This document shows positions 6,467 to 64,000 of a stretch of DNA of 64,000 nt, in pieces. Location of the stretch: contig CP126192.1 in assembly GCA_030272155.1 (NCBI GenBank), positions 6,606,501 through 6,670,500 of the forward strand. The letters run 5' to 3'. This DNA is from Tetradesmus obliquus (taxonomy: Eukaryota; Chlorophyta; Chlorophyceae; Sphaeropleales; Scenedesmaceae). Both the position numbers and the translations under genes were made by a program. The notes below the pieces were generated by a model. It worked only from the letters and a program-made list of their open reading frames with translations, had not been told where the DNA came from and did no database searches. Position 1 is the stretch's first letter. Every line of letters begins with the position of its first letter.

Positions 6467-6701
6467 TCAAACCTGGTGTGCACCCGCCACGGCACCGGCA
6501 GGCACATGGTCATGGTTGTTGCCGCGCGCATTCATCATCGGCACATGCTTCATGATGCCCACTGCTGCACACAGCGCCACAACTGCCAAGATGATCAGGA
6601 TGACGCCAGCCGCCACTGCACCGGGCTGCAGGGCCATCGAGAGAGCCTGGATCATGAATGGGAGGCAGCCGCCAAATGCCACCATCGCTGCGTTGTGGCC
6701 T

Positions 6702-6744
<43 letters not shown>

Positions 6745-6955
6745 TGATAACATGTCAGCAGAGTTCGTTGCAAACACACAGCTGTCAGATTCAACCAGAG
6801 GAGCCCTCAACAGCTGCTGCTGACACGCACATTGTGATGCACCAGGCAAGAACCCTGGCTGAACCTCCGCTGCTGGCTGGCTCTCTGTGCGCTCGTACAT
6901 GGTGCTACACAGAAGCCGCCGCTGCCGCAGCAAATGCGATTTCACCGGCAGCAGC

Positions 6956-6995
<40 letters not shown>

Positions 6996-9900
6996 CCACG
7001 CACCAATGTTGAAGCCGCTGGCTCCCACTCCAGCAGGGTACATCAACGGCAGGAAGGGTTTATAAAACCCTCTCCCAGCAGGCCAGTTGTGCCGCCCATC
7101 AGCGGCAGCAGCAGGAACACTGCCACAGCAGACCCACATGCAGAACCAGACCACAAACTACAGACCCAGCTCAACCAAACACGCATGTACAGCAGGGAAA
7201 AGGACCACAGAAAACTCCTGTAACAGCGCGCACCAATGTTGAAGCCGCTGGCGCGCACTCCAGCAGGGTACATCAGCGGCAGGATGGTTGGCACAACCCT
7301 CTCAGCAGGCCAGCGGCAGCAGCAGGAACACCACCACAGCACACCCAAATGCAAACCGCGGCCACAAACATAGCTCCAACTCGAGCCAAAAACGCATGTT
7401 CAGCAGGGAAAAGGACCACAAACAACCACTTTGGAAGCACGCACCAATGTTGAAGCCGCTGGCACGCACGCCAGCAGGGTACATCAGCGGCAGGATGGAC
7501 ACATTGAACCCTCCCAGCAGCCCCGTGATGCCCATCATCAGCGGCAGCAGCAGGAACACCGCCACAGCACACCAAAATGCAAAAATGAAACCACAAACAT
7601 AGCTCCAACTCGAGCCAAAAACGCATGTTCAGCAGGGAAAAGGACCACAAACAACCACTTTGGAAGCACGCACCAATGTTGAAGCCGCTTGCGCGCACTC
7701 CAGCAGGGTACATCAGCGGCAGGATGGACACATTGAAGCCTCCCAGCAGGCCAGTGATGCCCATCATCAGCGGCAGCAGCAGGAACACCGCTACCAGGCT
7801 TCCGGTGTGCAGCGCCAGCAGCACCGGGATGCAGATGGCTGCACCTGCCACAACCAGGGCCATGAAGCAGGTGACCTGCAGCAGCAGCAGCAGCAGCATC
7901 AAGGCAGAGTATACAAATAGAGGATCAGCAACGGTGTGCAGCGCCAGCAGCACAGGGATGCAGATGGCTGCACCCGCCACCACGAGGGCCATGAAGCAGG
8001 TGACCTGCAGCAGCAGCAGCAGCAGCAGCGTGAAGGCAGAGAGGATCAGCAGCATCGTACTGCAGATGGCTGCACTCAACACAACCTTATTTCTTGAAGG
8101 GATAATGAAGGCATAAGGGATCGTGCACTGCAGCAGCCGCAAGGCCAGTTGCCGATGTCTGATCAGATGAGGCATGCACAGATGCAACGGAGCAGCTGCA
8201 TGGCAAAGCACTTTGCAGGCATGCAAAGCCATTTAGCCAGGGCCACCGCTAGTTGTTGCGGACATGATATCGCATTGTTGCATGCATGCAAGCAGGCCAT
8301 ATAAGCATCTGAAACGTATAGGGCAAACGCGTTGTGTGGCAACAATCTGGTGGCAGCACACTGACTCAGCACATAAAAAACTAACAAACCAACGAATCTG
8401 CTGACCTTTGGAGCTCCCTTGTCTGACAGGTGTCCTCCCAGAGGCACCATCACCAGGAAGGCAATCATGCCCAGCAGACTCAGCACGGACAATAAAAGAT
8501 TTCGCAGGCTTCTACAGCAATTGGCTGAATGCATCTCACAGCATGCTGACTCAGCACGGACAATAACAGAAACTGCTGACCTTGGGTGCTCCCTTGTCTG
8601 ACAGGTGTCCTCCCAGAGGCACCATCACCAGGAAGGCAATCATGCCCAGCAGCACTGCCCACAGCGATGTAGTCAGCTTCACGTGGCCGGCAGTGCGCAC
8701 GTACGCGGGAGCCCAGCTGTTGTTTGGAGCGCAGCGGCAGCGGAAGCGCGGCACAGAGGTAGGTGAATTTGTGAGTCAGCATTGGGCAGCAGGGGCGGTT
8801 TACAAATGCACATGCAAGTGCTGTCAGGTCCACAGTAATGCGCTTATCACCAGTGGCAGATGCAACACAAGCACAGCAGTGACCAAGTCAGCTCAGCTGT
8901 ACTCAGCCAGCTGTGCGCAGCTGTTGATCAAGCTGCAGCTGCAGCACTGCTCAGTTCTATACGCATGCAAATGTCGCGGTTTGCAACCAGGTGATTGAAG
9001 GCCCTGCCCTGCTGGCACCTCACCTGAACCATACAGTGTTGCACCTATTCACCAACACAACAAAATCAATAGTTTAATAGAGCCATAAACATAAGGAGCT
9101 TGGTAGCGCTGCCCACCTCACCTGAACCAGGTGTAGAAGCCTGAGCCGAGTGCAGCCTCCACCAGGAACTGCAGCAGCAGGCTCACCCAATGGTCCTGCG
9201 GCACGTGACAGCGTAACATGTTTAGTTATCAACACAGCACAGCACACAGCACAGCACTCATAATCGCAACACAGTAAAGCACACAGTGCAGCACACAGCG
9301 CATCACACAGCACAGCACACAGCACATCACACAGCACAGCAGCCTCGCCTTGCACACAGCACAGCGCAAAACACAGCAGCCTTACCTTGCACAGTACACA
9401 GCGCATCACACAGTACAGTACACAGCGCAGTACACACACAACATAGCACACAGTACAGCGCACAGCACAGCACAACACACAGCGCAGCAGCCGCACCTTG
9501 AAAAGCACAGCCAGGGGCACGTGGTACAGTAGAAAGTGCAGCACACAGCACAGCACAGCACAGCAACCATTACAGCACACAGCGCAGCAGGCCCACCTTG
9601 AACAGCACCGCCAGGGGCACGTGGTGCTTGATCTTGGGGGCCAGCTGGGTCACCTCCTTGGCATACGCCTGCAGCAGCAGCAGCAGCAGCAGCACTGCGT
9701 GATCACACAAGTCCAATGACACCTCTCACCACCAGTTGCAGCATCTCAGGCCGGCACAGTACAGCATACAAGCAGGGCGCAAATAGTAACACAATGTGTT
9801 ACATTCAAGCTAAAATGTGACAGCTCAGCGCCGCGCACCTTCTCGCACTCCTGCATGGCCGGATCATTGTCATGATCCAGCTGCAGCTCCAGCTGCTGGT

Positions 9901-10361
9901 GGTGGAAGGGCGTACTAGCAAGGCACAGAAATGTAACACAGTGTGTTACATTCAACTCAAATGTAACAGCTCAGCGCCGCGCACCTTCTCGCACTCCTGC
10001 ATGGTCGGGTCATTGTCATGGTCCAGCTGCAGCTCCAGCTGCTGGTGGTGGAAGGGCGAGGCAGCATCTGCATCTTTTTTCATTGAAGGGCTCGCATACA
10101 GCTTGATGGAACCGGCCTTCTTGTAGCTCTGAGTCTTGTGCGCTGCCTTCGCGCAAGCAGCTGCGTCGGCCGCAACATCTGCTGCGGTGTTTGTGGTGGC
10201 GTCCTTGTTGCTGGTGGTGGTTGGCTTGGCGGCGTTGCTGCTGTCTGTGTTGAGGAAGTAGGCATCATCATCATCCTCAAGCAGTGAGGACTGGTGGGGG
10301 CTAGCCAGAGGGGAGGCCACCACGTGAGTCATGTCCTGCAAAGCCCAGCAGCAGCAGCAAT

Positions 10362-10397
<36 letters not shown>

Positions 10398-10480
10398 GGG
10401 TCATCATCTTCCTCAAGCAGCGAGGACTGGTGTGGGCTAGCCAGTGGGGAGGCCACCACGTGAGTCATGTCCTGCAAGGC

Positions 10481-10521
<41 letters not shown>

Positions 10522-13415
10522 GGGTCATGCATGCCGCGACAACTGCAAACCCAGCCCAAATACGTGCACTGCTGACAATGCTCCTGATGTCCACTTGGAA
10601 ACATCTGGCAGCAATGCACAGCTGGCACAAAGCGAGCGACGCAAACAAACATAACAACAACAAAGTCCTTTAGACACCAATTTGCCCCCGACCACGGCTG
10701 CTCACGTGCAGGCGCCTGCTCAGCTGGTGCGAGGTGACGGGCCGCACAGAGCTGGCCTGCTTGGAGATCTGGCGGGAGTAGGTGCGAGCCACCCTGCAGG
10801 ACAGCAGGGCAGCCACAACAGCAACAGGGCATGCGCAGCAGCCAGTCAGGCAGGCAGGCAAGCGCGCTGCTTGCATGGAAGTTTCACAGTGTTGGGCAGT
10901 GTGGTGTGTATGTCAGCAGTCTAGCAGTGCAGTAGGTTTTTAGACAGTAAAAATGCACGTGTGCGGCCTCTCACTTGTGTGCTGCAGTGCTGGCCACGCG
11001 CTCCAGCTTCATTTTGCCTGCTGACTCCATGAACTCATACGGCTCAGGCCTGCAGGCAGCAGCAGCAGCAGCAGCAGCAGAAGAAGAAGTTTGTAGCTGG
11101 CGGCTAGCAGCAGCAGCATGCCGCAACCGACCTCTGCAGCTGCGCCAACATGTAGGCGCCCAACCAGAAAGGTGTTGTGCTTGCAAAGGTTTTGGCAGCT
11201 TGGCTGCGATCTCAGCCAGTGCTGACAGAAGTGAAAATGGCAGATTGCAGCACACATGTTTCTGCCAGCCACGAACCCTGGTTCGCTGGTTGCATCAGAC
11301 GCCCGTGCACAACCACATGTCTATATGCATGTAGACGCCGAGTTGTGGCTGCTGCTGCTGCTGCTGCTGCGCCTGCTGCTGCTGCTCACATGTGCATGCG
11401 CATGATGATGGCGATGGGTGTGGTGATGATGGTCACAAGGAAGGGGATGCGCCAGCCCTGCAACAGCCCGCCAAACCAAAGCAAGCATGAGCACGTTAGT
11501 GTGTCAATATATGTTTTTCTTGATTGAACATGTACAAGCCGGCGAACATCAAGAGCAGCACTCTGGTTGCATCATCATGCACGCACAGTGCCTAGCAGCA
11601 GCCCACCACACCAAAGCAAGCATGAGGTCCTCAGTGCGTCATTGATGTTTGTCTTGATTCAACGAAACAAAAAGCTGCCGCTCGTCGACAGCAGCGCCAA
11701 GGATGCATCATTCATGATTGCACAATGCCTGGCAGCTAACAGGGGTGCTGCAGCAGAATGCAAGGTAGTTCAGCTAATGCAAGAGGCAGTACCCCAGCAT
11801 GTGCTGCAAGCGGGCTGCCTGCCATCAAATACAAGCTACACACGATTGCAGCAGCAGCAGCAGCAGCAACGTCTGCATCACTCTCACCCAGAGCTCCAGT
11901 TGCGCTGCACAGCACAGCAGGTCGTCGCCACAAGGTTTAGTGCCCATGCGCCAGGGCAGGCAGAACAGCAACGGCACATCACCCAGTCAGCAGGATTCAG
12001 TGTGTGGGATGAGCAGCCGAATCAATGCAGAGAAAGAGCAGGCGAGAGAGGTCTGTTACAGGGGTGGGCAAGCTATCACCCTAGAGTGAGTCACTTGCCC
12101 CAGCAGGCACAGTCATTGCACTGCAGCAGCACTCAATGCATGCCTACGAGCCTCTGGGTGGCTCCTGAATGGGCTGCCCGCTGCCTTGCTGGTTGGCCAG
12201 GGATAGTATGCAGCGCAATGTCATGCAATGCATAGGACGGGCAGTACTGCAAGTGTATGGCAGGTGCAGGTTCGAATCCTGCTTTTGCCAACGTGTGTTT
12301 TAGGGGCTCACCCTTGGAGCAGGGGTAGATGACAGCAAGGCACACCAGGATACCCAGAATGATGCCCGGGGCCTGCAGCAGATGAAAACAGGCGTCAGTG
12401 CACATGGCTTGTGCAGGTGGTGGTGGATGGCTTTAAATGCACATGGCTTGTGCAGGTGGTGGTGGATGGCCTTAAATGCACATGGCTTGTGCAGGTGGTG
12501 GTGGATGGCCTTAAATGCACATGGCTTGTGCAGGTGATGGTGGATGGCCTTAAATGCACATGGCTTGTGCAGGTGGTGGTGGATGGCCTTAAATGCACAT
12601 GGCTTGTGCAGGTGGTGGTGGATGGCCTTAAATGCACATGGCTTGTGCAGGTGGTGGTGGATGGCCTTAAATGCACATGGCTTGTGCAGGTGGTGGTGGA
12701 TGGCCTTAAATGCACATGGCTTGTGCAGGTGGTGGTGGATGGCCTTAAATGCACATGGCTTGTGCAGGTGGTGGTGGATGGCCTTAAATGCACATGGCTT
12801 GTGCAGGTGGTGGTGGATGGCCTTAAATGCACATGGCTTGTGCAGGTGGTGGTGGATGGCCTTAAATGCACATGGCTTGTGCAGGTGGTGGTGGATGGCC
12901 TTAAATGCACATGGCTTGTGCAGGTGGTGGTGGATGGCCTTAAATGCACATGGCTTGTGCAGGTGATGGTGGATGGCCTGAAATGCACATGGCTTGTGCA
13001 GGTGTTGGTGGATGGCCTTAAATGCACATGGCTTGTGCAGGTGGTGGTGGATGGCCTTAAATGCACATGGCTTGTGCAGGTGGTGGTGGATGGCCTTAAA
13101 TGCACATGGCTTGTGCAGGTGGTGGTGGATGGCCTTAAATGCACATGGCTTGTGCAGGTGGTGGTGGATGGCTTTAAATGCATGTGCAGGGGAAGTCAGC
13201 GCAGCCGCAGACATATGACACAGCGCAGCTCCACAATGCACAATGTATGCGCAACAACAGCAACAGCCTGTGCGGTTGCTGGCTGGGGTACACTTGAATG
13301 CACAACCAGCACGCAGAGGCACAGCAGCTGCAGCTTCAGCAGCAGCAGCATCATGCGCAAGCAGGGAGCTGCTGCAGCTGCCCCGCATCCATTTGCACAG
13401 TGTGCATCAACAGCA

Positions 13416-13447: not shown

Positions 13448-14479
13448 GTTGTGCACTCACGATTGCCGCCTGGCCGAATGATGAGAACAGTGCCTTCCTG
13501 TGCTTGGGCGCGATCTCAAAGAGGTACACGATGCAGCCTCCAAACTCGCCACCCACAGCCAGCCCTGCACAGCAGCACACAATGCATAAAGGTCGCATTG
13601 GTTCATAGCATGTTTTCCAACTGTTGTCATCCTCACATGATGCACCATGTCGCGGTGTATGTCCAAAACCACCAACTGTATCACACCCGCTGCTGTGGCT
13701 GGTAAGCGGATGCTGCTGGCCGTGCTGGTGGTGATGTACAGCACCTCAGCTTGCAGGAACCCCAGGATAGCCAGCAGCACAGCACTACCCGGATTCGTCA
13801 ATGGTTGACTAGGTTTGACTGGCGTTGACTTTGCAGCACTGACACGCCAACAAACAAAAGTAGCAGCCATGCCCAAGCACCTCACCTTGCAGGAACCTCA
13901 GGATAGCCAGCAGCACAGTATCACCAGGTTTGACCAGATTGAGTGGCCAGCAGCACAGGCGCTGCAATGCTAACCATGTGGCATGGCAATGGCGCAATAT
14001 CAGCTGCGCATCCCTCACAACAATCACAATCTGAGTGAATCAAACAGCACCTCACCTTACAGGAACCTCAGGATGGCCAGCAGCACAGGCCCTGCACTGC
14101 CGATCATGTGGTGTGGCAATTTCAAGAGTTGCAACGTGCAATGGCGCAACATACGCCGTGCATTCTGAGAAAAACTCATATCACCGCTTACCTTGCAGGA
14201 ACCTCAGGATGGCCAGCACAGGCACAGCACTGCCAAGAAGGTAGTGCGGCAATGGCACAATTCGATGCCGTGCATTCCTGCAAATGATGACAACTTGAAT
14301 GCATCAATCAGCACCTTACCTTGCAGGAACCTGAGGATGGCCAGCAGCACAGGTGCCGCAATGCCGATCATGTGGTAGCTGGGCAGGCAGCCGATGAGCA
14401 CAGTGGGGAGCGTGATCAGCAGGATGGTCAGCAGCATCGTGATGCGCCGCCCATACGCGTCACCAACGTGCCCAAACCT

Positions 14480-16997: not shown

Positions 16998-18680
16998 CCA
17001 GCCTCATGTTGCTGGAGCCCCTGGCAGGTGCAGACGGCACCTTCACAAAACCGCCAGCTGTCTTTGCTGCATTGGACAAGAACGCGCCCATGCCGCTGCT
17101 TGCAGGAGTGGATGCGAACATCTTCACTGGAGTTGGTGCAGGGGCAGAAGGGCGGGACACCACCTTGACTAGACCCTGCAGGCCCTGCAGCATGTTGCCG
17201 AGGCCATTATCGGAATTACTGCTGCTGCTGCTGCTCTTGACGTTTCCTGCAAGGCCTGACAGCAGGCTGCCGACCTGTGCCAGGCCAGCATTGTTGCCAT
17301 TGCCAGTTAGTCCTGCCAGCAGCTGCGCTGCCTGGCCCAAGCCACTGGCGCTGCTGCCGCTGTTTCCACCAGCCAGACCTGCCAGCATCTGGCCAAGTGC
17401 GTTGCCGCTGTTTCCGCTAGCACCGCTGCTGCTTCCAGACAGGCCAGACAGTAGCTGAGCCAGCTGGTTGCCTTCGGGAGCATCGCCACCTGCTGCTCCC
17501 CGCATGCCCTGGGTAGCTGTATCGATTGATTTAAGAGCCGAACCCAGCGTCTCGACAACCTTCACGAGGTCTCCGGACTGCACTGCGGTAGCCAAGTTTG
17601 GAATGGCGCCAGCTGCGGTACCGAGGGCAGCACCAAGCCCGCCTAGGCTTGCAAGCTGGTCCAGGGAGGGTGCCTTAGGCTGTTGAACCGGCTTGGTTAG
17701 CACCTGGTACAACAAATCTCCGGGCTGCGTGATGTTTGCTGCTGCGTTGATGGGCTGGCCCATAATCATCTTCTCGGCCACGCTGCCGATAAAGTCCGTG
17801 ATGGGGTTGGTGGTGTTACGCGTTGACCGGGTCTGGAACTTCCAGTCCTCGGCAGCAGTGTCGAAGGTGGAGTCGTTGTACAGGCGGGGAGCAGGGGGAG
17901 CGGGAGGGGGACTTGGGGGAGAGGTTTGACCCATGAGGTCAGCCAGGGTCATGGGGGGTGGGGGAGGGGCGGCAGCGGTGGTGACTGCAGGCAGCAGATG
18001 AAGAAAAACAGCTGGTGTAAGTTAAGCGGCGGGAGTCAGGTGGGTGTGCAAATGCTGCATGTCAGTCGCCTGGTCGGTGTGCTGCTGTACTCCTGTGGCT
18101 GCTGCTGGTGGAGCTGCTACAGCCAACATCAGTTAGTCGAGCTTTGGATGCTACTCTCTGGCTGCACTGCAACTACTGTACGACTCACTCTTCTGACCAA
18201 AACCACTTCCCGCTGATGCTCTTTGCGTGCAAACCACCGCAGTCACGCAATGTGTTGTCAACCCTGCTGACTATGCCAGCACACATGCTGCAAGATGTGG
18301 CTGCATCCTACAAATGCTGCAACTGCCCCCTGATGCTGCCATCTCTTGCTCCTACCTGCTGTGTAGAAACCCAACAGTCACATTCCCCACTCACCACAGT
18401 CATCAAAGATCTCATTGGGTGAGGAGCCAGCAGGGCAGGCGCGGCAAGTGTGGCTGCACTCTACTGCAGCCGCCTGCTGCTGCCCTCGCTTGTTACTATG
18501 CTACTCACCGCAGTCGTCGAAGATCTCGTTGGGTGATGAGCCAGCAGGGCAGGCGCGGCACTCGGCAGCGGAGCGGGAGCCGTCACGCGACACGGGGCGT
18601 GTGCCGGGGCACTGGTTGCAGGTGGCCTGGCGGGTCACACTGTTGGTGTAGCCATACCAGCCGGATGCGCAGACTACACA

Positions 18681-20487: not shown

Positions 20488-21929
20488 TGCTAAGGCTTTT
20501 AATGTAATTCTATACTAGGTTAAGACGTAAATGCTGCTTGGCAGCAGCTGCGCGAGCTGCACTGAGGCTACCGCCCTATCTCCCGCGCACTGGGGCGTGC
20601 AAGTATCCAGCTACTGTTACGTCTCAATGTATGGTGTTTCACACGTATCATCAAACATGTGCTCTACAGTAGGACGTGTGCGAAGGTATCAATGCGCTCT
20701 GCACGCGAACTCCGCACAACAAAAATGACAGCAGTACATGGCTCGCAGTTGTCCACGCCCGTCATAATGCATCGGAGTTAATCTAAGCCATAAAAGTTTA
20801 TGGTTAAGGTGTTTGAGTATTTCATATGTGGCAAGCGACCTGCGTGGCAGCCGATCGCGACTAGTGTTCGATCAATGTCAACTTGCGATGCTGGGGAGCG
20901 CCTGATATGCAAGGACCTGCTAAACGCCGAGAAAAAAAATTAACCATCCTAAACATTCACTGTTGCAGCAACGCTAGCTGCCAGGCGTGTGACATGGTCA
21001 TCGTGTGCTGGTAAAGCAGGCTCAGCAGCACTGTATTTACATTTGACGTCATGAGTGTGGTGATGCAGCCCAACAGCTCTTGAGCATGACAAAGACCCAA
21101 AAATGATCTAACCTTGAACATCATAGCACCTGCAAGTATCTTGGCTGAGCCAACCTGCCACAGCCATCATCAGCGGATCCAGTTGCACTCTTGTCGACAG
21201 CCAGACAATCAAAGAGCTGTGTTACACAGACACAAAGATCGCTGTTTGCCAGCCAATGACACCACTCTGCACCAAAATAAGCCAAAGTCACATTGCCACT
21301 GGCCGCGTGCACTGCTACAGCGGCAGGAGAAAAGGGCGCTGCTTGGCAGCTGCACAGCTGCACTCTGTTGTTAAACTGACAGTGGGCTCTCACAGGCCGC
21401 CAGGATACAGCCGAAAGACCTCAATCAGCCTGCAGCAGCAAACACACGCAGCACAGTGTGTTCAGTGCCACATGCAGCAGCGCACCGCTGGCCATACAGC
21501 CCCACTACGTGTGGCAATTCACCACCACACACACTCAAGCCAGCTGCAGTGGTGCTGAATGGCCCTTGCGCTACTCACTGCAAAGCACACAGTGTTGCAA
21601 GCACAACTGCACAAAGCCACACCATCACTCCCGCCCTGACGGCAGCTTTACAGCACCACTGCCGCCAGCTGCTGCAGGCACTTCATCAGTACAACACTCA
21701 CCACGTGATAATGTCGCCGTGGCGCTGCAAGCACAACTGCACAGAAGCACACCACCACCCTACCACTCCCATTATGACTGCAGCTTTACAGCACTACTGC
21801 CGCCAGCTGCTGCATGCATTTCATCAGTACAACACTAGCAGGAAGATCTTTTCGATGCCCACTTCGTTCGACTATTTCCATCTTCTTTACATGCTAAAAC
21901 AACTCTGCAAACTCCATTTTAACAGCACT
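20488..21929. other. Promoter of the Cys-rich gene and unresolved 3' part of the DUF262 gene
   Basis: 20488-21100 shows no gene and should carry the Cys-rich gene promoter. 21440-21930 holds decayed copies of the DUF262-gene exon end RHGDIIT with a GTGAGTG donor (about 21700-21735, and 21590-21620 partly). The true terminal exon of that gene must lie here, but I could not identify it. Confidence 0.5.
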
Positions 21930-22250
21930 CACCGCGTGATGATGTCGCCGTGGCGCTGCCTGCATTCCTCGGGGCAGAACATGTCGCGGCTGTAGCGCCC
22001 GCTGAGCAGGCCGCCAGTGAACTCCGGGAAGTGCTCATCAGCAGCACAGGCGCTGTAGTGCTGCAGCTTTGTGGCTAGGTCAGCCGACAGGTGCGTGGTG
22101 GCGGCAGACTACAATACAGCGCAGCAGCAGCAGCAGCAAGGCATAGTGAGGCTGACGTCAGCAGCACAGGCGCCGTAGTGCTGCAGCTTCGTTGCCAGGT
22201 CTGCCGACAGGTGCGCGGTGGCGGCAGACTGCAATACACGCAGTAGCAGT

Positions 22251-22297
<47 letters not shown>

Positions 22298-25200
22298 TGC
22301 ATAGTGAAGTTGATGTCGGCAGTACAGGCGCCGTAGTGCTGCAGCTTGGTGGCCAGTTCAGCCGACAGGTGCGCGGTGGCGGCAGACTACAATACACGCA
22401 GCAGCAGCAGCAGCACGGGGACAGTTAAGACCAGGGCTGTCGACAGGAGGGCAGTGGCGCAAAGTGAAAACCAGATGCTGCAGAAGCAGAAGCAACAGCA
22501 GCAGCATAGATAAATTGTGAACGCCAGGTCAGCTGACAGGAGGGTGACATCAAATCAGCATTGCAGCATCAGCATTGCAGCATCGCCACACCACATCCCT
22601 GCTGCTCCTGCTCAAGCTGGTATTGTTGCTGCTGCATGGCAGCTGCATTGAACAGCAGGCCATCGTCCGTGCTGCTGACGCACCTGCTGCCCTGAGGGCT
22701 GCAGCAGCACCAGGTTGCCCAGCCTGTTGACCCAGTGGCTGCGAGTCATCTCATGCCAGTACAGAACCTCTCGCATTCCCGGCGGCACATTGCTGCTGCT
22801 GCTGCTGGTGCCTGCTGCACCATGCGTGTCTGCATTGCTGCCGGCTGATGCTTCGTCCCCAGACGAGACAGCGAGGCTGCTGCTGGCAGCGCTGCTGCTG
22901 GTGCTGCTGGTGCGGCTCCTGCTCCTGCGGCTGCTGCCGCCGCTGCCGCCGCTGCCTTTGCCGCGCTGGTAGATCAGGCTGTGGTAGGTTGAGGTGCTGC
23001 TGCTGCTGGCTGCTGCTGCCGCCGCTGCTTCGTCGTCTGACAGTGCTGGCAGCAGCAGCTTCTGCCGCCGCCACTGCGAGCCTTTTGGGGGCTGTGTGGG
23101 CACGATGCGCTCCACCTGCAACACCACCAAAATAACGCAGTAGATATCAAAGTATAATACAGAAAGCATGCAAACCTAGCAGCAGAAGCTGCTGAGCACG
23201 GAAGGCACGACAAGCCTGCCGGCCTCTGTAGCAGCTCTCACAGCTGGGGGCGCATTTGTACGACCGCAGCTGATCGGCAGTCGGGGCGAAGTCAGCTACG
23301 CCGCAAAACCAATCAGCACACAGCTAACCTGCCTAGTAGCATTGCCTGCCGTCCGCCACTACCAGCCATCCCTACTCCCTGCAAATCATCCAGTCAGCAC
23401 ACAATGAGCAAGCTCGACGGCTGACAGCAAAGCAAGTCTGTTGCAGCGGCCCACCTTGAGCCGCCGCCAGTGCAGCGCCTTGCGGTTGATGCTGTCGGCG
23501 CGCAGCAGCAGGTGCGTCAGCAGCCGCTCATCAGCAGCGGCGGCCAGCTCGCGGCTGCCCAGCAGCACCACAAACTCATCCGCCTCATCTGCACCACGCA
23601 TGTAACGTGTTGCGTCAAGCAGGAGTGGTAAGCAGCAAGTTGTGTCAGCAGCTGTTTGTGTCATATTGTCTCAACCAGCAAAACGGAGAAATATGTAATG
23701 GGATGGTTGAGCAACCTGTCAGCAAGCCGCAGCGGCTGCGCAGATGTCATAGCTATGCAACTGCCGGCTCCCGAGGCAAGGCTGTGGATGTGTTACATAA
23801 CATGTTATAACATGCCTCACCTGGTGACAGCGCCAGCGCTGACAGCACCTGGTCCGAATAGAAGGGCCGCTGCAGCAGCTGGCTGCCCACAGCCAGCCAC
23901 CTGCAGGACACACGAAAGCACAACAACTTCACGTTCAGTAGTTCATGCTCAGTGGCGGAGAGCATGTTCACAGACGAACAGGGCAACAGACAAGCAGAGG
24001 GGCCACAACATCAAATGCGAGTAGCCACCACCGTGCTGCACATACGCACACACCGAGCAAACATGTCACATCACGTTGTCCACCATACCAGCCCGGGCAC
24101 TCCACGCGAGCGTGCATGCACCCTACCCTACAGCAACACAGGCTGATGCATCACATATGTGTGGCGGTGCTACTCTCCAAACTGCTGCAACAACCATCAT
24201 GCAGCGCCCTCCCCGCACAGTCGACCCTTTTCTTGCCACAATGCAGATATCACCATGCAGTGTCCTCGACTCCCCGCACCTCTCCCGCTTGAAGCCCTCG
24301 TCCTGCTTCAGCTCGCAGAACAGGCTCAGCAGCTCCGCGCCCCGCAGGAAAGCAGCGCGCTTCGCGTCGTCGGCAGACTGGTAGAAGAACTCCAGCGCCC
24401 AGGGCTGCCAGGCATCATCTGCCAGCAGGTTGATGAAGAAGCAGGCCTCCGACAGCTCGGCAGCGATGGCGGGCGCTGCACGGCAGCAACATTGCGCAAG
24501 GATTGCAAAAGGACAGGTAGCACGTGAGCAGCGTGACCAAGCAGCATGAAGTTGTAGCAGCGCTGTTTGGAGGAGTGTGCTTCCCTGTAACAGGTAGGGC
24601 CAGCCGGCAGATGCTTATTCAGCAGCAGGCCATTGGCATGCAAGCACGCACATTGCAAGCCAAGGGCATGCAAGCACGCACACACGCAGGCACACATGCC
24701 CAAGATGCATCCATTCAACCGCACCGTCTCAGCCATGATGCAAAGCAGCGGCACGCGCGTCCATACCCACACTGCCACCATACATTCACCCACCCACAAC
24801 ACTCAAACCACACACACCTGTGCCCCCTCAGCCTCCAGCGCGCGCCAGTCACTCACAACATGCAACCACCACACCCGCGTCATCAACCCACACATTCCCA
24901 TCACCCCCCTTGTCCTCAAGCAAGCACGCAAACACCCCACTCACACACCTGTGCCTCCCTCAGCCTCCAGTGCGCTCCAGTCATTGGCGCGTATCTGCAG
25001 CAGCTGCTGCCCATACTCTAGCACCATGCTGAGCACGACCTCCACATCACTGCGCCCCGTCAGCTGCTGCAGCACGTCGTGCCGCTGCTGCTGCCCAGCC
25101 GCACACACCACGCCATGCATGCCTGGCAAGCTGCCTGGCAGCATTTGCTGCATTTCATGCTGCTGTTGTTCGTTGCTGCTGCCGTTGCTGCTGTCTATCG

Positions 25201-28200
25201 CGTGTGGGTGCATCAATGAACTCCCGACAGGAATAAATGGTACAATGCTGCCGCTGCTGCTGCTGCCGTTTGATGCTGACTGGTCAGGTGTATGCGCCCA
25301 CGACGAGTTCTGCTTAGAATTGCCTGCCCCATTGCTGCTGCTGCTGTTGCCGGTTCCATTGCTGCTGCTGCTGCCGTCCTGCGCTGCTGCTGTCGCCTGC
25401 TCTACAGTGATGTAATGGTCAAACAGTGCATGGAATGAAGGGCGCCCGAGAGCTGCCTCCAGCACTGACCAGCGGTCCGCAAATGATTGGCGCTTGGGTG
25501 CGGGCAATGCCTGCATATGCAGACACCAGAACAAATTTGAACAGCAGACAGAAATTGACCTGTAAGAGCAGTTGCAACGCAGGCCAAGAAGACGACCGGC
25601 AGAGCGCTGACAGACAAGCAGGCAGACATACCATTATACAGGCGGCACATACTACACAACCAGCCCAGCCTTCCACTGTGCCGCACCTGCAGCAGCTCCG
25701 GCTTGAGCTTGTCCACCACTGCCGGGTTTACAATGGCCAGGCAGTGAGACAGGCGGTCATGCAGACAGGCAGGCAGGCGACCACACCAACAGGCGACACA
25801 CCAACAGACAGGCAACACACAAACCAAGCAGCTGCACCTGCAGCAGTTCTGGCTTGAGCTTGTCCACCACTGCCAGGTCCACACAGACACTCAAACACAC
25901 AAGTATGGCAGATCAATCCACTGCAAACAGCCGCCACGCCTGCAGCAGCTCTGGTTTGAGCTTGTCCACCACTGCCAGGTCCACGCCCCTGCCGTTGAGT
26001 GTGGAGAAGATCTTGAAGCTGGTGCCCTCGTCACGCGCAATCATCAGCACCACCATGCAGTTGCGCAGCACGTGGTGCATGAAGTCCTGCAAGCGCATGC
26101 GGGTGTGGCGATGACACTGGTGGGTGGTGAATTGCCGGGTGCTGGCCGCTAGACAAACGAAACAACTTGCTGGCAAGCGTGCAAGCATGTGGGGCAAGTG
26201 CATCTGCATGCAGACACCACAGCACAGGCACGTACGGAGTTCTGCGAGCACGGCACGCCAGCACCAGCATGATGTGGGCTGCAGGCGTGGCGATGATGGC
26301 TGCTCTGCCGGTGAGCAAGTGCGTGTCTTACGGAGGAGTGGTGGTGGAGCATAGCAAGGTGGCAGCTGCGACACAGTCCGCGCCACAGCCATGCGCCACA
26401 GCCTGGTGTGATGTGAGGCGCTGAGCTCACTGTCTTGCTTCGTCGCATGAGATGCAGGAAAAGGTGGCAACAGACGGTTTTGCATCCTAGTTTCGCGCGG
26501 TGCGTACCTGCAGATTCAGGCCTTGCTGCATTGCTGATGCAAGGTAGCACGCCAGCACATCACCAGCTCCATACAGCCGCCACCAGGTCTCATTGCTCAG
26601 CGGCACACCCTGCCCTCCTTGCTGCTGCTGCTGCTGCTGACTGCCAGCGTGAACTGCCACCGCTGCAGAGCCGCCTGCACCGGCTGCAGCAGCTGCTGCT
26701 TCATGGTAGTTGCTGGCGGAGTTAGCTGGGCTGTCCAGCTGCGTGCTCAGGCTGTAGCGCGTGGGCAGGTAGCTGGTGATGAAGTTGTCTACGAAGAACT
26801 GCTGGTCGCTGCTCCTCAGCAGCAGCCGGTACCTGCGGGTGGCAGCGCAGCAGCAAAAGCCAACGCCACATGCAGGTGCGGTTTTGCGAAGCTTCCCAGG
26901 CCCTGCTGCTCAACACAGCCACAGCCACAAGCAACACATACACAGACAACAACACTTGACACACTCACCTAGCTTTTGCTGCTGGATTCAGCGGATCAGC
27001 GGGGATGTGCAGCATGCGCTCCACACGCTCTGCCAGGCTGCCCAGGTCCTGGTGCTCTGCTGCCCAGGCGCGCAGGTAGCCCAGCAGCATGACCAGCGTG
27101 GTCAGGCGCTGCTGCCCGTCGATGATCTGCTTGCAGGAAACACGCAGGGACATGCAGGAAACATGCAGGAGGCATGCACTCAGGGTGCAGTGTGCTTGTT
27201 GTGCTCGGCACTGGCAGCTTTGCTGATGTGCATTTGCAGGAGGCACGCAGGGGCTGTGCAGCAGTGGAAAGCAGGACGAGTACATGGTTGACGCCAGCAC
27301 AGGCACGCGCATTGCCTCTGCAGCACATGCAGCATGCACCTGTTCCATCTGTTACTCTGTTAGACAGCTACAAGATGTGTATGCACGTACAACACAGCTG
27401 CGGGCTCTGCAACGTGCCGCCACAGCAGTGTTAGCAGCAGCAGCAGCAGCAGACTGTCGCCTCACCCAATATGGCTCTCCCGCTGCGCTGCCTTGGCGTG
27501 TTGTGACGATGTTTCCCAGGAAGTACTCCTGACCTGACAGGTAGGCTGCATGCAGATCAGCCAGCAGCTCCTGCACCTGCAGGCAGCAGGGGCCACATGC
27601 TGTTGACCAGATGCAGTCTTGATCAGCAGGCTGCACATGCTGTGGACCGAAAGCAGGGTTGGTCAGCAGGCCAGCAGCACCGCACTGCAGCGCAGCACCC
27701 AGCTAAGGAGTTGCGGGGCGAACTGCTGTGCGGGCAAAAATAAGGTTGGCAGCCCAGGCAAGGGCATGCCAAACTGCCCTGTTCCCGGGCAATGTTTTGA
27801 CTTCAGCTGGTTGTGCCTACTGCAAGTTCCATGTGGCCTTGCGGACGTTGGTGAGGCGCTGGCGCGTCTGCTGTTGCTGCTGCTAGTGCTTGCCTGCTTC
27901 GCGCGCCAGGCGTAAGGCCTTTGATACTCTGGCACATCCAGCTGGTATTGAGAGCCATCAAAGAGCTCGTATAGGGATATCTGACGCGCCTCCAAGAAGT
28001 CCCTGCAAGTTCCAGTTGTACACGTGTGCTGTGCTCATGAACAATAGGGTGGAGCAGGCATGCAGTCCACAACTGTCAACACAGAAGTGCAAGGCGGCAT
28101 ATAAATGACTGCGCGTACTTTCTAAAGGCAGAACAAGACAAAGATGAACAGTTAATCGGGATGATGCAGTGCTGACGTACCTGCGAGGTGCCTTGCTTGT

Positions 28201-30296: not shown

Positions 30297-30340
<44 letters not shown>

Positions 30341-30441
30341 AAGGGGCAGCTGGCGCTGCCGAGCTGGCTGCTGCTGCTGCTGCTGCTGTTGTTGAGGTGG
30401 CAGCTGAAGCTTCTGCTCTGGCTGCTGTTGTTGCGGTGAAA

Positions 30442-30485
<44 letters not shown>

Positions 30486-57534: not shown

Positions 57535-59372
57535 CTTCTTCAGGCCATGTCAGTACCCTCCTCTCTGACCGCTGCCCCCTGCAGCTGGCAGACTGGGCCA
57601 ACAGCTACGGCCCAGTCTACAAGCTGCAGCTGCTTAACAGGGCCTGCGTCATCCTCACAGACCCAGCTGCTGCACACGAGCTCATCAGATGGGGCAACAG
57701 CGAAAACTACCTTGGCAAAACGCGCGAGCTGTATCGTGCGCTGGAGCTAGGCACTGAGCCAAAGATGCCAAACATCCTGACATCGCCAGATGATGTGTAT
57801 TGGAAGGCTGTGCGGCAAGCGACTGCTCCCTGCTTCAGCATCAGCAACCTCAAGCTGGTGAGGGCTGATTCAAAAGTCAAACGTTGACTGAAAACTCATA
57901 ACGTTGACTTTGCAGTGGTGATTGGTGGGGATGCGCATCATGTGTGGCGCTAGCAGCACATTCTGAGCAACGACGCGGCCTCTGGACAGCTGTTGTTTTG
58001 TTTGTTAGGGTTGGGGACTGCAACAGCAGGGGGTTGGGAGTGCTGGTGGGTTTATTGGGGAGTACATGTGAGGTGCTTATATTCTGCCACAACGTCGCAT
58101 GCAATGCACGCAAGCATCTGTCTAGCACTGTCATGGCGAGTGCAAGGTTCAAAGGAATTCGGCAACTGTCTCACGTTGTGGTTACCACCATGCTTCTGCT
58201 TGTGCTGCCTCCCCAGGTGTTCCCCTGGGTGCTGCAGCTTTGTGACAAGGCAGTACACCACGTGACCAGCACCAGCAGTAGCAGCAGCACAGCAGATGGC
58301 AAGCCTGGACCTGCTGCTGCTGCTGCTGCTGCAGCATCGATTGATGTGGAGGATTTGGCGAAGCGCTTCACTGCTGATGTGATTGGCCACATGCTGTTTG
58401 CAGAAGACCTGAAGAGCATGGACATGGGGTGAGAAGCGAGGCAGCGCATATTTCGCGTTGTTCTTTCGCGCTGCAGTGGTGCAGGCACTGAAATTATGCA
58501 TGTCATTCACGCTGTTGCTGCCTGCGGGAGCAGTGTATCCGTCACATTGGCAAGCTGCACCGACCCATGTCGTACAGCAGGCCGCACTTTCAGTGAGCAT
58601 CTGCTTGTTCATCTGAAGCATACCATATTTATTGCATGGTATTCATTTCACTGCCAAAAGCCTCACCCGCCCATGGAATTGATTGGTCACAATCACCATC
58701 ATCAACCACATGAGCTCAACGTGTCCACATTTAACTTGATGTCTGCAGAAAGAGCCAGTACCTGGAGATCTGTGCTGCGCTGCTGGAGGAGGTGCACAAC
58801 TTGCTGCATTATCAAGCTTCATCAGCATTACATCAAGCCTGCAACGTGCACACTTTGATCGCGTGCGCTGCAACAAATGCACACGCTGTTCAACATGCTG
58901 ACTGCTGCCATGCCTTTCCGTCCGCGGCACCTCACTGACCACCTAACATGTTTGCAACAATCTTTTGCCCTTCACAGCAAGAGCCAGTACCTGGAGATCT
59001 TTGCTGCGCTGCTGGAGGAGGTGCACAACCACTTCAGCAACCCGCTGCGCCCGCTCATGCTCAAAGCCATGGGCTGGCGCCCAGAGGTGGCCCGAGGCCG
59101 CGATGCATTGGCCATCCATGACCGGCTGATGGGAGCTAAGCTGAAGGCCCAGCTGGCCAGTCCGCCACCAGAGTACACCATCACAGGTGAGTCAGGGCTG
59201 TTGGGGTGTGCCCTTTCCATTTGCGGCCACCTGTCTGCTCAATCCTAGGGTACTGCGCTGGGGTCTGTTTGAGGACGGCCCGGCAGGCATCTCATCCGTC
59301 AATGCAGCTCTGCGCTCATATCTATGCTCTGCCTTGCTGCAATCAGAACGCACTGCATGTGCGGCTGCTGCA

Positions 59373-59408
<36 letters not shown>

Positions 59409-59661
59409 CTTGCATGTCTGCTGCCACCGCGCAGGCCACCTGCTCAAGGTGCGTGACCCTGCCACTGGGCAGCCGCTGACTGTGCTCAATATGTTCCGCC
59501 TTGCAGTCAACCAGTGCTGATGCCTGCTGCTGCTGCGCATAATTTCTTTTATGTCTTGCAGGCCACCTGCTCAAGGTGCGTGACCCCTCCACTGGGCAGC
59601 CGCTGTCTGTGCTGCATTTCTTTGCCGCCTGCCGCCTTGCTACAATCAACCCGCGCTGATG

Positions 59662-59723
<62 letters not shown>

Positions 59724-60791
59724 GTGTTTGCTGTCACCGCGCAGGCCACCTGCTGAAGGTACGCGACCCGGCCACTGGGCAGCCGCTGAGCTTTGCACAG
59801 GCCAAGGCGGAGATGGCCATCATGATGGGAGCAGGTGCGGCGGCTGGCTGCCTTCTGGTGTATCAGTTGCTGCTGCGGCTGTTGTTGTTACTGTCGTTAC
59901 TGTTCAGTACACTAAATGCGTGTTGATGGTTGGGAGTTATAGCCAACATAATGGGCGCAGGTGCGGCGGCTGGCTGGAGCACTGCTCTGTTGCTGTCGTC
60001 ACTACTGTTCTAAACACCAAAGCCAGCTGCCTTCTTGCGTGGTAGAGGTTTAGCCTCTCACTTGCAGCCACCTGCGCCAGTCCCTTCACGCATTCCAGCT
60101 GTGTATGGCTGGTCGTAACTCCCCTGCTGCTGCTGCTGCTGCTGCTGCTTTGACTGCCACAGGCTTTGAGACCACCAGCCATGCGCTGAGCTGGACGCTG
60201 GCAGCACTCGCAGCACACCCAGATGTGCAGGACACACTCGCAGCAGAGCTGGCAGCAGCAGGCCTGACACCAAACAAGCAGCAGCAGCAGCAGCAGCAGC
60301 GGCCGCTGGAGTGGGGTGACCTGGCACTGCCGTACCTGAATGCAGTCATCAAGGAGAGCCTGCGGCTGTTTAGCCCTGCAGCGCTGGGCACCAGCAGGGC
60401 TTGCCACAAGGACGTCAGCGTATGCGGCCACACACTGCCTAAGGTGAGGCGGCTATTTACTGTGTTATGTAACATGTTATGCAGCAACGGCCTGCACAGC
60501 ACCAGCAGGGCCTGCCACAAGGATGTGACTGTATGCGGCCACACACTGCCCAAGGTGAGACGTCGTCTCACGGTGTTATGTAACATGTTATGCAGCGTAA
60601 CTTATGCTGCAACAGCCTGCCAAGCAGGAGCCCCGCGCTGGCCACGGAGGTGATACCCACAGGCATGTTGGGCAGGGTGACAGGTGGCGTCCTGTAATGT
60701 TTGCTGGGCTGTGCACTGAGCTCAAAACACTGTTAGGATGGAAATCGCCGGTGGATCACTGCTGAATGCCCATCACCGCTGACATGTCTGC

Positions 60792-60832: not shown

Positions 60833-61517
60833 CCCTCAGGGCATGCACGTGATCATCCCGCCCTACCCCATCAGCGTCAGCATCGCCAACTATGGCCCCA
60901 CCACTGACCTGCGCTCTGCTGCTGCTGCTGCTACTGCTACTGCTTTCTTTCAGGGCATGCACGTGATCATCCCGCCGTACCCCATTGGCGTCAGCATCGC
61001 CAACTATGGCCCCACAGCACCTCGCTTCATCCCAGAGCGCTGGCTGGACACACAGCAGCTGGAGCACTTGGATGCACTGCGAGAGTCTGCAGGCCTGCTG
61101 CCACGCGCTGCAGCCGCAGCAGCAGCAGTAGGGTTTGGCCACAGCAGCAGCAGCAGCGGCAGCAGCAGGAAGCTAGCTGAGCTGGCGTTCAGCACTGGGC
61201 CGAGGGACTGTGTGGGTCAGTCGCTGGCAAAGTTGGAGCTGCAGGCAATGATTGCCACGCTTGCAGGACACTTTGCGCTGGCACCTGGGAAGGTCTTGCA
61301 GGAACGGCTGGCAGGGATAGCTACAGCCGCAGCAGCAGATGAAGCAGCAGGCAGCGCAGCAGTAGATGAGGATGCGGATGCGGATGGGGAGGGCGAGTCA
61401 GCAGGGTTTGTCAGCCAGCCCAACCCGGCAGATGCGCTGAAAGCGTGCATCATGTACCATGTTACGCTGCAGCCACGGGGTGGCAACATGGTGCTGCGGT
61501 TCACCCCACGTTGCTGA
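57037..61517 (+). CDS. Cytochrome P450
   Basis: Membrane-anchored heme-thiolate monooxygenase, about 610 residues. Seven exons, all joins keep phase: 57037-57199, 57544-57857, 58217-58428, 58978-59186, 59745-59834, 60163-60443, 60954-61517. The N-terminal hydrophobic anchor is followed by STQRWLKTTSIPGPSASNK (Pro-rich hinge). The I-helix oxygen motif AGFETT forms exactly across the 59834|60163 splice. K-helix ExxR is in VIKESLRLF; the PERF-like region is APRFIPERWLD; the heme-binding loop FSTGPRDCVG has all key residues including Cys. Low-complexity inserts (poly-Ala before IDVEDLAKRF, poly-Gln at about 60273-60300, Asp/Ala run near 61340-61400) lengthen it beyond the usual 500. CYP clan and substrate cannot be decided. 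Introns contain partial copies of exons 4, 5, 6 and 7. Confidence 0.92.
58749..58801 (+). repeat. Duplicated acceptor end of P450 exon 4
   Basis: CTGCAG followed by the codons for KSQYLEI-ALLEEVHN matches the start of exon 4 (58978) with few changes. It runs out after about 50 bases into unrelated sequence. It is an alternative 3' splice site without a full exon. Confidence 0.85.
59430..59970 (+). repeat. Array around P450 exon 5: three acceptor ends and two donor ends
   Basis: The exon start encoding GHLLKVRDPATGQPL occurs at about 59433, 59562 and 59745 (the last is the full exon). Each copy has an upstream CTG run, and the first and last follow a CCGCGCAG acceptor. The exon's donor end (GGAGCAG|GTGCGGCGGCTGG) at 59834 recurs at about 59950. 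The exon therefore has decoys on both sides. Confidence 0.88.
59663..59723 (+). repeat. (CTG)20 microsatellite upstream of P450 exon 5
   Basis: A pure CTG run ending about 21 bases before the acceptor at 59744, on the coding strand. Confidence 0.95.
60390..60560 (+). repeat. Duplicated donor end of P450 exon 6
   Basis: The segment for TSRACHKDVSVCGHTLPK plus GTGAGG (to 60443) recurs at about 60500-60555 with GTGAGA. The intron word TGTTATGTAACATGTTATGCAG follows both copies. Confidence 0.88.
60840..61016 (+). repeat. Duplicated acceptor end of P450 exon 7
   Basis: GGCATGCACGTGATCATCCC and following bases occur after acceptors at 60839 and 60953. The first copy lacks a donor but is open into the second copy, so use of the upstream acceptor would add about 38 residues in frame, including a second IPPYPISVSIANYGPT. 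Confidence 0.88.
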
Positions 61518-62591
61518 GGGTTGAAGGGTAAAATCACCCTGCCATCCTGTTGTTCCGGGTGGTGTTGCGTGGAGCAATGAGGTGTGACAACCTGCAGTTG
61601 TTGCGCTGAGTTGTATGAGTTGAAGTGTGACGGGATGCGCAGGGCTGAGTGCATGCAATCAATTGCAGGCTCTGCAATCTCTGGGAGCGCATGAGAGATG
61701 ATTTGTCCATTGCAGCTGCACATGCTGTGTGCACGCTTAGTGCTGGAAATGACGGGTTACGCTTGTCACCACGTTGTCAAGGGTACGTGTCTGGGAGCAA
61801 TGTGTTGCATGCAGCTAGTGCAGAATGTAACATGTGTTATTGTCTTCCCTGCGATTCTTTGTAGTGCTGGCCCATGGCTGTGGTGAGGTTTAAGTGCTGC
61901 CAGTGCCCCTCAGGGCCTGCCTCCATCAATTGTGCCTGGCTGCGCCACAGATACCATATATAGGTAGGGTTGAGTCGATAACATGTGCAACCTGGCACGA
62001 AGGAATGGAACAGCAGCGCAGCGGGCACATCTGCTTGTCCCTTGGACATATCAAGACAACTGCTAGCATTACTGGCAGTCAGTGTGCACATTGTGTTAGT
62101 GCTTGTTTGATTTTGGTAACGACAACTAAATATGCTCTCAAGCTCATTGGGTAGAACGGAGGGGGTTCCACGGGCAGGAGATTTAGTCCCTGTCAGACAG
62201 GCTGCCTGAGACAGATGGTGCTACAGCAGAACCCGCGCACTGCCTGACGTGGCTCAGCCACGGTGTTGCCCGTATGTGCCAGACCGGCTCGGTGTCCTTC
62301 GCAGTGAGACTAAGGTTGTTTCAATGTTGTTGTGTTGTGATAGTCGGGCCACGTAGTTTCTGATCGTTGGATCTTGACTTGCAGTACCTGGGTGCATCTC
62401 TCTTGAGTTGCGGATTGCCGTTGTTTCAGCATCAAATCTTTTTGGCTAAGTTCCTTCAGCTTTGGCTGGGCCGAAGCTCTGTTTCCTCGACGATACAGTC
62501 CTGTGCTTCCTTGCTCTCACGTTAACTGCTGCCGTTCGCTCGCGCCGTTGCTCGATCGTGGTGCGAAGCCGTGATTAGCTCCTAGCAGCTT
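61518..62591. other. Intergenic region
   Basis: No gene seen. P450 3' end (a TGTAA word is present near 61826) and the promoter of the F-box gene. Confidence 0.55.
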
Positions 62592-63560
62592 ATGGATTCC
62601 GCAGCTGCTGAGGACGAGGAGGCTGTACAGCGTCAACATCAACAGCAGCAACAGCAGCAGACCGACCATGCCAGCATCAACAACCTGCCACCAGCAATCC
62701 TGCATGGCGTATTCTCGCATCTGGGACCTCAGGACTTGTGTTGCGTTTCATGCACGTGCATGCTCTGGAGGCGTTTGACTCGCGACAGGGTCAGCAACAG
62801 CACATGGAAGCACTTCTACACGCAGCGCTGGTCAGTCTCGCCTCCTGCAGGAGACGAGGTCTGCTGGCAGAGCAAATACGGCAGCAAGATGAAGCAGGTG
62901 CGGCTTTTGATCGTTGTGGATGGCTGCAGCCAGCCAGAAACAGCAGCGTATTTGTTCAAGTAGCAGCGCCTTGTGCCCATTGTACAGCAGCATGTAGCGT
63001 CTGCATGCTGTCCTGGTTAGCGTGCTTGCAGCATGTCGACAATCGATGCTTTTACACAGCATGTTGATTGGATAAAATCCAGGGGATCACAGACATCAGG
63101 CATCTTTGTGTTGAAAATTTGCTGCTGTTTGCCTTGCAGGGCAAGTACTGGACTGGCAAGTATGAGCATGACAGCCTGTATGGCCACAAGGCAGGCGTGA
63201 AGTCACTCAAGCTGCTGCCATCACATGGCATGCTGCTCACAGGTGGGTTAGCAACAAGGATGTTATGGTTATCATCATTGTTAAGGGATTATAAAATGCC
63301 TGCTGCTGAGCAGGTTGATGGAAGCCTGTTAAAGCCTGGGTTGCAGCAGCAGCTGAGCAATGGCACGTGTGGCAATTCTGCACGAAGCAGCTGTGCTAAT
63401 TGCAGCGCCGATCTAGGACATTGCCATGTGGGCTTGCCGCAGGTGCATGAAACTTTGATTAACTTTCCTGTCTTCAAGTGCACACGTGCTTCGCGTACGC
63501 ATTGCCAGCAGCTCCGCATTGCATTACTCCTCTCACTGCTTCCTCCTGCGCCTTGCTCTG

Positions 63561-63591
<31 letters not shown>

Positions 63592-64000
63592 CGCTGCTGC
63601 TGCTGCTGCTGCTGCTGCTAGGCTCGCTTGACCGCACCGTCCGTCTGTGGGACCTCAAATACGGCATGCCCCTGTCTATCAGCCGGCCACACGGCAGCAC
63701 CGTGCGTGCTGTGGCGCTCGATGCGCAGCTCGTGGCCAGTGGCAGCAGTGACAATGTGGTGCGGCTGTGGCATGCGCGCAATGCGAGCGAGGGTGCTTCG
63801 CTGCTGGACCCTGCGGCGGCTGCAGAGGCTGCTGCGCTGCTGGAGGTGGGTGGGGGTGTGCGGGATGAGGGTTTTGACAGCTGCTGGTGCTTTGCTTGGA
63901 GGTTTCACGGTTGCAGAGGCTGCTGCGCTGCTGGAGGTGGGTGGGGGTGTGCGGGATGAGGGTTTTGACAGCTGCTGGTGCTTTGCTTGGAGGTTTCACG
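62592..64000 (+). CDS. F-box/WD40 protein, 5' part (runs off the window)
   Basis: Likely substrate receptor of an SCF ubiquitin ligase. ATG 62592. Exons 62592-62897, 63140-63242 and 63622-63845 join in phase (CAG|GGC; ACA G|GC TCG). A poly-Gln stretch precedes the F-box (INNLPPAILHGVFSHLGPQD, then LCCVSCTCMLWRRLTRD). The F-box is followed by WKHFYTQRWSV and the linker KYEHDSLYGHKAGVKSLKLL. WD repeats begin with GHKAGVKSL, LDRTVRLWDLKYG, and HGSTVRAVALDAQLVASGSS followed by DNVVRLWHA. More blades must lie beyond 64000. Intron 2 has a long CTG tract ending in the acceptor CTGCTAG. Exon 3's donor end is duplicated right at the window edge. Confidence 0.87.
63821..64000 (+). repeat. 91-bp tandem duplication of an F-box/WD40 exon donor end
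   Basis: The sequence from TGCAGAGGCTGCTGCGCTGC across the donor GAG|GTGGGT into the intron recurs with a period of 91 bases (starts 63821 and 63912). It is essentially identical up to the window end, so the duplication is recent. Confidence 0.92.

Follow-up and report, generated by a model that had tools for sequence, protein, structure and literature searches.

A stretch of 64,000 nucleotides from the green alga Tetradesmus obliquus (G000:C2:6606501-6670500; called the window below, meaning the whole stretch that was analysed) raises the question of why the ends of exons, each with its splice site and some intron, recur in short arrays in several unrelated genes. A preliminary description of this DNA had listed such arrays in an MFS gene, a cysteine-rich gene, a DUF262 gene, a P450 gene and others, and had proposed that exon edges are amplified by a genome-wide process that could feed alternative splicing. 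The analysis reported here showed that duplications containing one splice site are in excess both in the window and elsewhere in the genome, and that in most pairs of copies the duplicated unit runs from the exon into the intron. It is plausible, though somewhat short of probable, that the copies are tolerated local tandem duplications across exon boundaries, surviving mostly as relics with intact-looking splice sites and shaped by exchange between alleles or array members.

Local duplications are in excess at exon ends

The genome comprises 104,662,953 bases in 17 contigs. The sample totalled 244 kb and consisted of the window and eighteen 10-kb pieces, all within C1-C6. Duplications were sought by self-comparison (at least 31 of 36 bases matching, low-complexity sequence masked), which gave 66 duplication families, 25 of them within the window and 41 in the remainder of the sample; one 100-bp-block shuffle of each piece gave 0. 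A duplicated stretch was found at or near every coordinate given in the preliminary description, and the arrays it listed are therefore real. Filtering reduced the 66 families to 53; the 13 dropped were four from a satellite-like locus (L010) and others that were of short period, long or mostly low-complexity.

Families were classified against an exon-intron gene model that was self-trained from P450 coding seeds. A first version collapsed to CAG repeats as acceptors, and the version used imposes a minimum exon length and masks repeats more strongly. The consensus that emerged from the data was CAG/GTGAG for donors and TGCAG/G for acceptors, with a median exon of 135 bases and a median intron of near 305 bases. 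The G+C content of the window is 0.566; a table for T. obliquus in PMC5966456 gives 57% and a mean intron of 462. Proteins joined from the model's exons matched the Pfam families MFS_1, GmrSD_N and p450, implying that the model exons are sensible and supporting these three gene identities; GmrSD_N is presumably the DUF262 of the preliminary description. A WD40 match was obtained on a single open reading frame (ORF) piece of 62 residues. The model misses exons, fuses neighbouring genes and sometimes chooses a site within a copy, so that all family classes are relative to it, and the nulls were built with the same model. Acceptors 22108 and 60954 and exon end 25939 were placed by hand from the aligned copies, where the model had chosen 22060, 60840 and 25969, respectively.

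Of the 53 families, 45 lay in predicted genes. Exactly one splice site was contained in 27 of these and at least two in 3, with 4 lying inside an exon and 11 in introns only. When the same shapes were placed at random in genes, the respective numbers were 10.9 +/- 2.7, 1.2, 9.2 and 23.7. One-site families accounted for 12 of the 21 in-gene families inside the window and for 15 of the 24 outside it, where repeated exon parts were found in P450, kinesin and FKBP genes, and so the pattern reaches beyond the window as had been supposed. Because the original unit would be longer than the surviving similarity, and copies of conserved exons stay recognisable for longer, persistence was also simulated through the full pipeline, with random tandem duplications, neutral copies, constrained exons and ages drawn evenly, followed by re-annotation with the same model. 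The share of one-site families among one-site and intron-only families was 27/39 in the data and 0.29 (560/1939) in the simulation (p 2e-7); a simpler version of the simulation gave 0.40. An even spread relative to exon ends, the outcome named beforehand as refuting the idea, did not occur.

The 11 intron-only families include at least two copy-copy pairs of exon-edge arrays (22121 and 59428) and a coding repeat (3405), and with these families binned there the exon-end excess is, if anything, understated. Counts of strong motifs made independently of the gene model showed a weak excess for donors (11/57 against 5.8 and 5/57 against 1.9) and none for acceptors (25/57 against 27.4 and 10/57 against 15.4). 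The 27 one-site families in 244 kb correspond to about one per 9 kb or, by crude extrapolation, about 11,600 genome-wide.

In most pairs the duplicated unit runs from the exon into the intron

To describe the unit itself, 26 pairs of exon-attached and intron-side copies were compared. Gapped intron homology continued past the splice site in 17 of the 26 pairs (p < 0.05, with one borderline at p 0.05) and was undetectable there in the other 9, while homology past the exon-side break, which is sharp, was found in 2 of 26, the chance level. The earlier suggestion that the exon edge itself is the amplified unit is thus not supported. The copies are direct, local and in tandem, as expected of duplications that cross a boundary.

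Opposite splice sites were not in excess at the far ends of the 26 copies (p 0.93 and 0.89), in line with the earlier remark that most copies lack one; an acceptor-like site scoring over 4 lay near 5 of 15 donor-end copies (control median 3.3). Exonised mini-exons were rejected as an explanation on this ground. The spacing between copies was a multiple of three in 11 of 27 one-site families, where one third is expected, so the reading frame is not preserved and most intron-side sites would shift the frame if used. The preliminary description had spoken of competing sites of equal phase; this holds insofar as each copy keeps the phase of its exon, and fails for the spacing. In a search of the whole genome (104.66 Mb) that skipped very common words, an FKBP stretch and one GmrSD stretch matched their own array only, and another GmrSD array matched itself and one further stretch of 43 bases. 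Taken together, the intron-containing unit, the lack of an opposite-site excess, the frame-blind spacing and the local matches point to tandem duplications across exon boundaries rather than to small exons or a dispersed element.

Arrays in the window

The MFS gene carries the following arrays, of which the pair at 9472..9627 was absent from the first list; here and below, the exon-attached site is given first.

6994..7799, minus strand: donor-end array of four (donor 7673; copies 7444, 7233 and 7003; spacings 229, 211 and 230)
7803..8032, minus strand: acceptor-end pair (acceptor 7875; copy 8004; period 129)
8391..8652, minus strand: donor-end pair (donor 8580; copy 8405; period 175)
9472..9627, minus strand: donor-end pair (donor 9596; copy 9496; period 100)
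9805..10066, minus strand: donor-end pair (donor 9984; copy 9838; period 146)
10262..10523, minus strand: acceptor-end pair (acceptor 10335; copy 10471; period 136)
13738..14376, minus strand: donor-end array of five (donor 14319; copies 14191, 14055, 13885 and 13749)

In the acceptor pair 7875/8004 all 20 amino acids compared are identical and there are four synonymous differences, and in the donor pair 8580/8405 the exon stretch differs at 2 of 72 positions and the intron is diverged. The 14319 array includes a copy with an in-frame TAA ahead of the donor (14055) and one that has no GT (13749). The 7673 array is a patchwork: two of its copies agree at all 83 intron bases (7591-7673 and 7362-7444) and at 16 exon bases, yet their exon stretches differ at 9 of 42 third positions, a pattern that suggests exchange inside the array. 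A protein search with the MFS frame found no relatives. The region of this gene also holds a minisatellite at 12391-13186, with about 20 copies of a 39-base unit that are 98% alike and open on both strands.

Further arrays lie in the cysteine-rich gene and the GmrSD-type gene, where the donor-end copy at 21637..21964 had likewise escaped the first list.

18387..18564, minus strand: donor-end pair of the cysteine-rich gene (donor 18508; copy 18394; period 114)
21637..21964, minus strand: donor-end copy of the GmrSD-type gene (donor 21932; copy 21701; period 231), with an additional repeat of period 138
22036..22415, minus strand: acceptor-end array of three of the GmrSD-type gene (hand-placed acceptor 22108; copies 22228 and 22386)
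25680..25986, minus strand: exon-end array of three of the GmrSD-type gene (hand-placed exon end 25939; copies 25837 and 25686)

At exon end 25939 the exon-attached copy is followed by GC and both intron-side copies by GT (25913-26086), which indicates a GC donor or, alternatively, damage to the gene.

The P450 gene and a WD40-repeat gene occupy the far end of the window.

58742..59034, plus strand: acceptor-end pair of the P450 gene (acceptor 58978; copy 58749; period 229)
59360..59789, plus strand: acceptor-end array of three of the P450 gene (acceptor 59745; copies 59562 and 59435)
59813..59976, plus strand: donor-end pair of the P450 gene (donor 59835; copy 59961; period 126)
60388..60564, plus strand: donor-end pair of the P450 gene (donor 60444; copy 60555; period 111)
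60833..61018, plus strand: acceptor-end pair of the P450 gene (hand-placed acceptor 60954; copy 60840)
63812..64000, plus strand: donor-end pair of the WD40-repeat gene (donor 63846; copy 63937; period 91), whose members are almost the same in sequence and which reaches the end of the window

The exon head at P450 acceptor 60954, GMHVIIPPYPIGVS, agrees with relatives, and copy 60840 has S where the six relatives read have G. One relative, the P450 protein P0001 (68% identity), repeats its own exon head in decayed form 39 residues upstream (residues 1-39; 0 of 5000 shuffles), at a spacing of 117 bases against 114 in the P450 gene of the window.

Two other features of the window were observed. 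At 3331-3915, outside the range covered by the preliminary description, a 228-base repeat (family 3405) is present in 2.6 copies, each encoding AEDVVEVLQDFYKLKRLGFR...VERF with small differences; its copies lie in two different frames with stops between them, and it is likely another partial exon array. At 28800-39400 on the minus strand lie three neighbouring genes that resemble one another and are apparently tandem paralogs; seen by eye, they have stretches rich in serine and arginine as well as long runs of glutamine and of serine.

Arrays elsewhere in the genome

The largest array found is in a kinesin gene on the minus strand (L031, G000:C2:7430301-7432400), which has seven acceptor-end copies of one exon head. 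The six extra copies of this head, DVIVSLANKESHIPYRNSKLTWL, are each preceded by a CTG run and AG, their spacings of 123-141 are all multiples of three, and a single open frame spans the copies. The intron that holds them opens with two additional copies of the upstream exon's tail. CTG runs adjoin several acceptor copies when inspected by eye, most strikingly these.

P450 genes on C8, C12 and C14 contain repeated partial profile segments (L032-L035). At one of them (L032, G000:C8:3939301-3941000) the region of profile positions 230-310 occurs in several tandem copies at spacings of about 241-255, and four P450 profile matches fall within one open frame of 511 codons. An FKBP gene, named from its relatives (L018), has three acceptors of the copied-exon-head kind; a second copy was not seen by eye in 11 short FKBP relatives. 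The gene at L022 has four acceptors in its last predicted exon, one of them exon-attached, and each opens a different C-terminus. The satellite-like locus mentioned above (L010, G000:C2:5200001-5210000) contains many repeat pairs at 2007-3200, and every offset listed there is a multiple of three. No related DNA was found in viral contigs or in bacterial and archaeal genomes.

Origin and fate of the copies

If the copies are tolerated duplications, their history may be pictured as follows. Tandem duplications would arise locally along the genome in units of roughly 90-300 bp, and many would break once inside an exon and once in the intron next to it, so that the unit carries one splice site. 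Such an event would be tolerated, since the exon-attached copy would be spliced normally and the redundant copy would sit in the intron. Its intron part would then decay by substitutions and indels, and its exon part would stay recognisable, the partner being under selection and the copies continuing to exchange. Once formed, an array could gain more copies. The copies could have split off as functional exon ends, through unequal exchange among alleles or array members that had diverged, and have decayed since, which would leave a bias towards third-position differences as its trace. As the introns of diverged alleles are already poorly alignable, such exchange would also raise the apparent share of exon ends and sharpen the edge of similarity.

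Several observations weigh against this account. Simple persistence of exon parts was rejected as the cause of the exon-end excess, being too weak (a share of 0.29 simulated against 0.69 observed). Of the six in-gene families with an identity of at least 0.93, five include splice sites, where the expected share is 0.38 (p 0.03, a small and exploratory set), the sixth being the repeated coding segment 3405, and this hints at a bias at birth towards exon ends. Differences between the two copies in 26 pairs (7 of 33 comparisons were dropped for a weak site or a short exon stretch) numbered 27, 22 and 89 at codon positions 1-3, a third-position share of 89/138 (0.645). In simulation a neutral copy gave 0.44-0.47, and 0 of 4000 resampled sets of 27 reached 0.645. 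At 12 exon edges anchored by homology, a set that overlaps the 26 pairs and leaves out 5 further rows, the share was 50/68 (p 6e-6), or 42/68 (p 0.009) with one row in an uncorrected frame. Identity fell from 0.88 at intron positions 3-6 to 0.62 at positions 7-12, more steeply than in the neutral simulation (0.89 to 0.83). At L022 the peptide AFKAVAKKA is preserved in the copies, whose differences fall mostly at third positions (by eye), and this locus was excluded from the polarised test described below on account of two misplaced copies.

Two fully constrained copies gave a simulated third-position share of 0.77, with nearly all sets at 0.645 or above, and the observed share is therefore intermediate between the neutral and the constrained expectations. 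CpG mutability was rejected as the source of the bias, the non-CpG rates being 0.045, 0.042 and 0.140 at positions 1-3. Gene conversion between copies was set aside by reasoning alone, as it should lower the third-position share and not raise it. We suspect that the bias comes from exchange between diverged alleles and not from present translation of the copies.

These same data could be read as the mark of selection, with the intron-side copies serving as working donors and acceptors that compete with the exon-attached site and give alternative transcripts. The third-position bias and the drop in identity directly after the splice consensus would fit this, as would the four acceptors and different C-termini at L022 and the retention of splice dinucleotides in 25 of 26 pairs and in 28 of 29 copies of multi-copy arrays. 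However, dinucleotide loss in the neutral simulation was 28/271 against 1/26 observed, so that retention is within what neutrality allows; opposite sites are not in excess, the spacing ignores the frame, the 14319 array includes one copy interrupted by a stop and another whose GT is gone, and the relative P0001 retains no more than a decayed copy at the corresponding place. When changes were polarised in ten multi-copy arrays of the sample and the kinesin array (two exon stretches shortened), those confined to the exon-attached copy numbered 3, 0 and 12 at positions 1-3 (12/15 at the third), and those confined to intron-side copies numbered 15, 9 and 21 (21/45), a test that is diluted because some changes counted as unique to the oldest copy arose on the lineage of the exon itself. 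The intron-side changes altered the amino acid in 25 of 44 cases, and the contrast with the exon-attached copy (Fisher p 0.03-0.04) implies that intron-side copies are less constrained. Selected working sites therefore seem unlikely, and the suggestion that the copies feed alternative splicing is not supported, given their indifference to frame, the lack of an excess of opposite sites and the damaged copies. It is similarly doubtful that the introns of this lineage hold thousands of coding- and splice-constrained copies that compete with the exon-attached site as a pool of alternative edges.

A duplication process aimed at exon ends, through breaks at splice junctions, RNA-DNA hybrids or the CTG runs by acceptors, would account for an excess that surpasses the persistence model, for the splice sites in the youngest families and for the CTG runs beside acceptor copies. 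Yet the splice site is not a fixed end of the unit, which continues into the intron; most aligned donor-end arrays lack CTG runs (by eye), and the young families number just six under a gene model that is self-trained and incomplete; we consider such targeting improbable. Interweaving of two diverged haplotypes or strains in the assembly could also produce false tandem copies, and synonymous exon differences with strong intron divergence are what allelic sequence would give. PMC9516828 documents this for vertebrate assemblies, in which divergent haplotypes have given rise to false duplications and, among them, to false exon gains. Arrays of 3-7 copies cannot derive from two haplotypes, however, and the divergence among copies is graded, the contigs are of chromosome scale, and P0001, which comes from independent data, shows its decayed copy at nearly equal spacing, all of which makes an artefact very unlikely. 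Tolerated duplication across exon boundaries, with exchange, remains the preferred reading, and the interpretation offered in the preliminary description is as a whole partly supported.

Relation to known systems and significance

In mutually exclusive tandem exons each copy bears both splice sites. The arrays described here resemble them in having repeated adjoining exon sequence in one gene and differ in that the far ends of the copies show no excess of opposite sites. Gao and Lynch reportedly found internal gene duplication to be ubiquitous. Among the literature matches listed there was no genome-wide report of exon-edge arrays.

Single duplications across an exon boundary are already published. 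In the potato case described in PMC4974935, a tandem duplication across an intron-exon boundary created a new intron; as here, the duplicated stretch spans an acceptor boundary, taking in the 3' splice site together with part of the intron and the head of the exon, and its copies differ at a few bases. Transcript reads in that case show the new intron to be spliced, with a cryptic donor from the upstream exon, whereas the present arrays involve donor as well as acceptor ends, many genes and up to seven copies. Duplication of an exon segment bearing AGGT is presented in PMC3443670 as an established route of intron gain, and it too yields additional donor- and acceptor-like sites by local tandem exon duplication, but the site copied here is an existing exon boundary with its intron and not an internal AGGT. 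Introner elements, as characterised in PMC9860276, likewise affect many introns across unrelated genes; they are dispersed copies of one element, in contrast to the three arrays searched, which apart from the 43-base match correspond to themselves only.

In the T. obliquus sample the density is about one boundary-crossing family per 9 kb. The arrays carry a warning for annotation, since an ab initio gene model can choose an intron-side copy, as it did with P450 acceptor 60840 over 60954. Copies whose differences are biased towards synonymous sites and that lack an evident opposite splice site are either used or were built by exchange between diverged alleles. If the copies were indeed constrained, duplication across exon boundaries would supply a standing pool of alternative splice edges. 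In a genome of this kind, the material from which introns grow, new introns arise and alternative splicing develops could be watched at many different ages.

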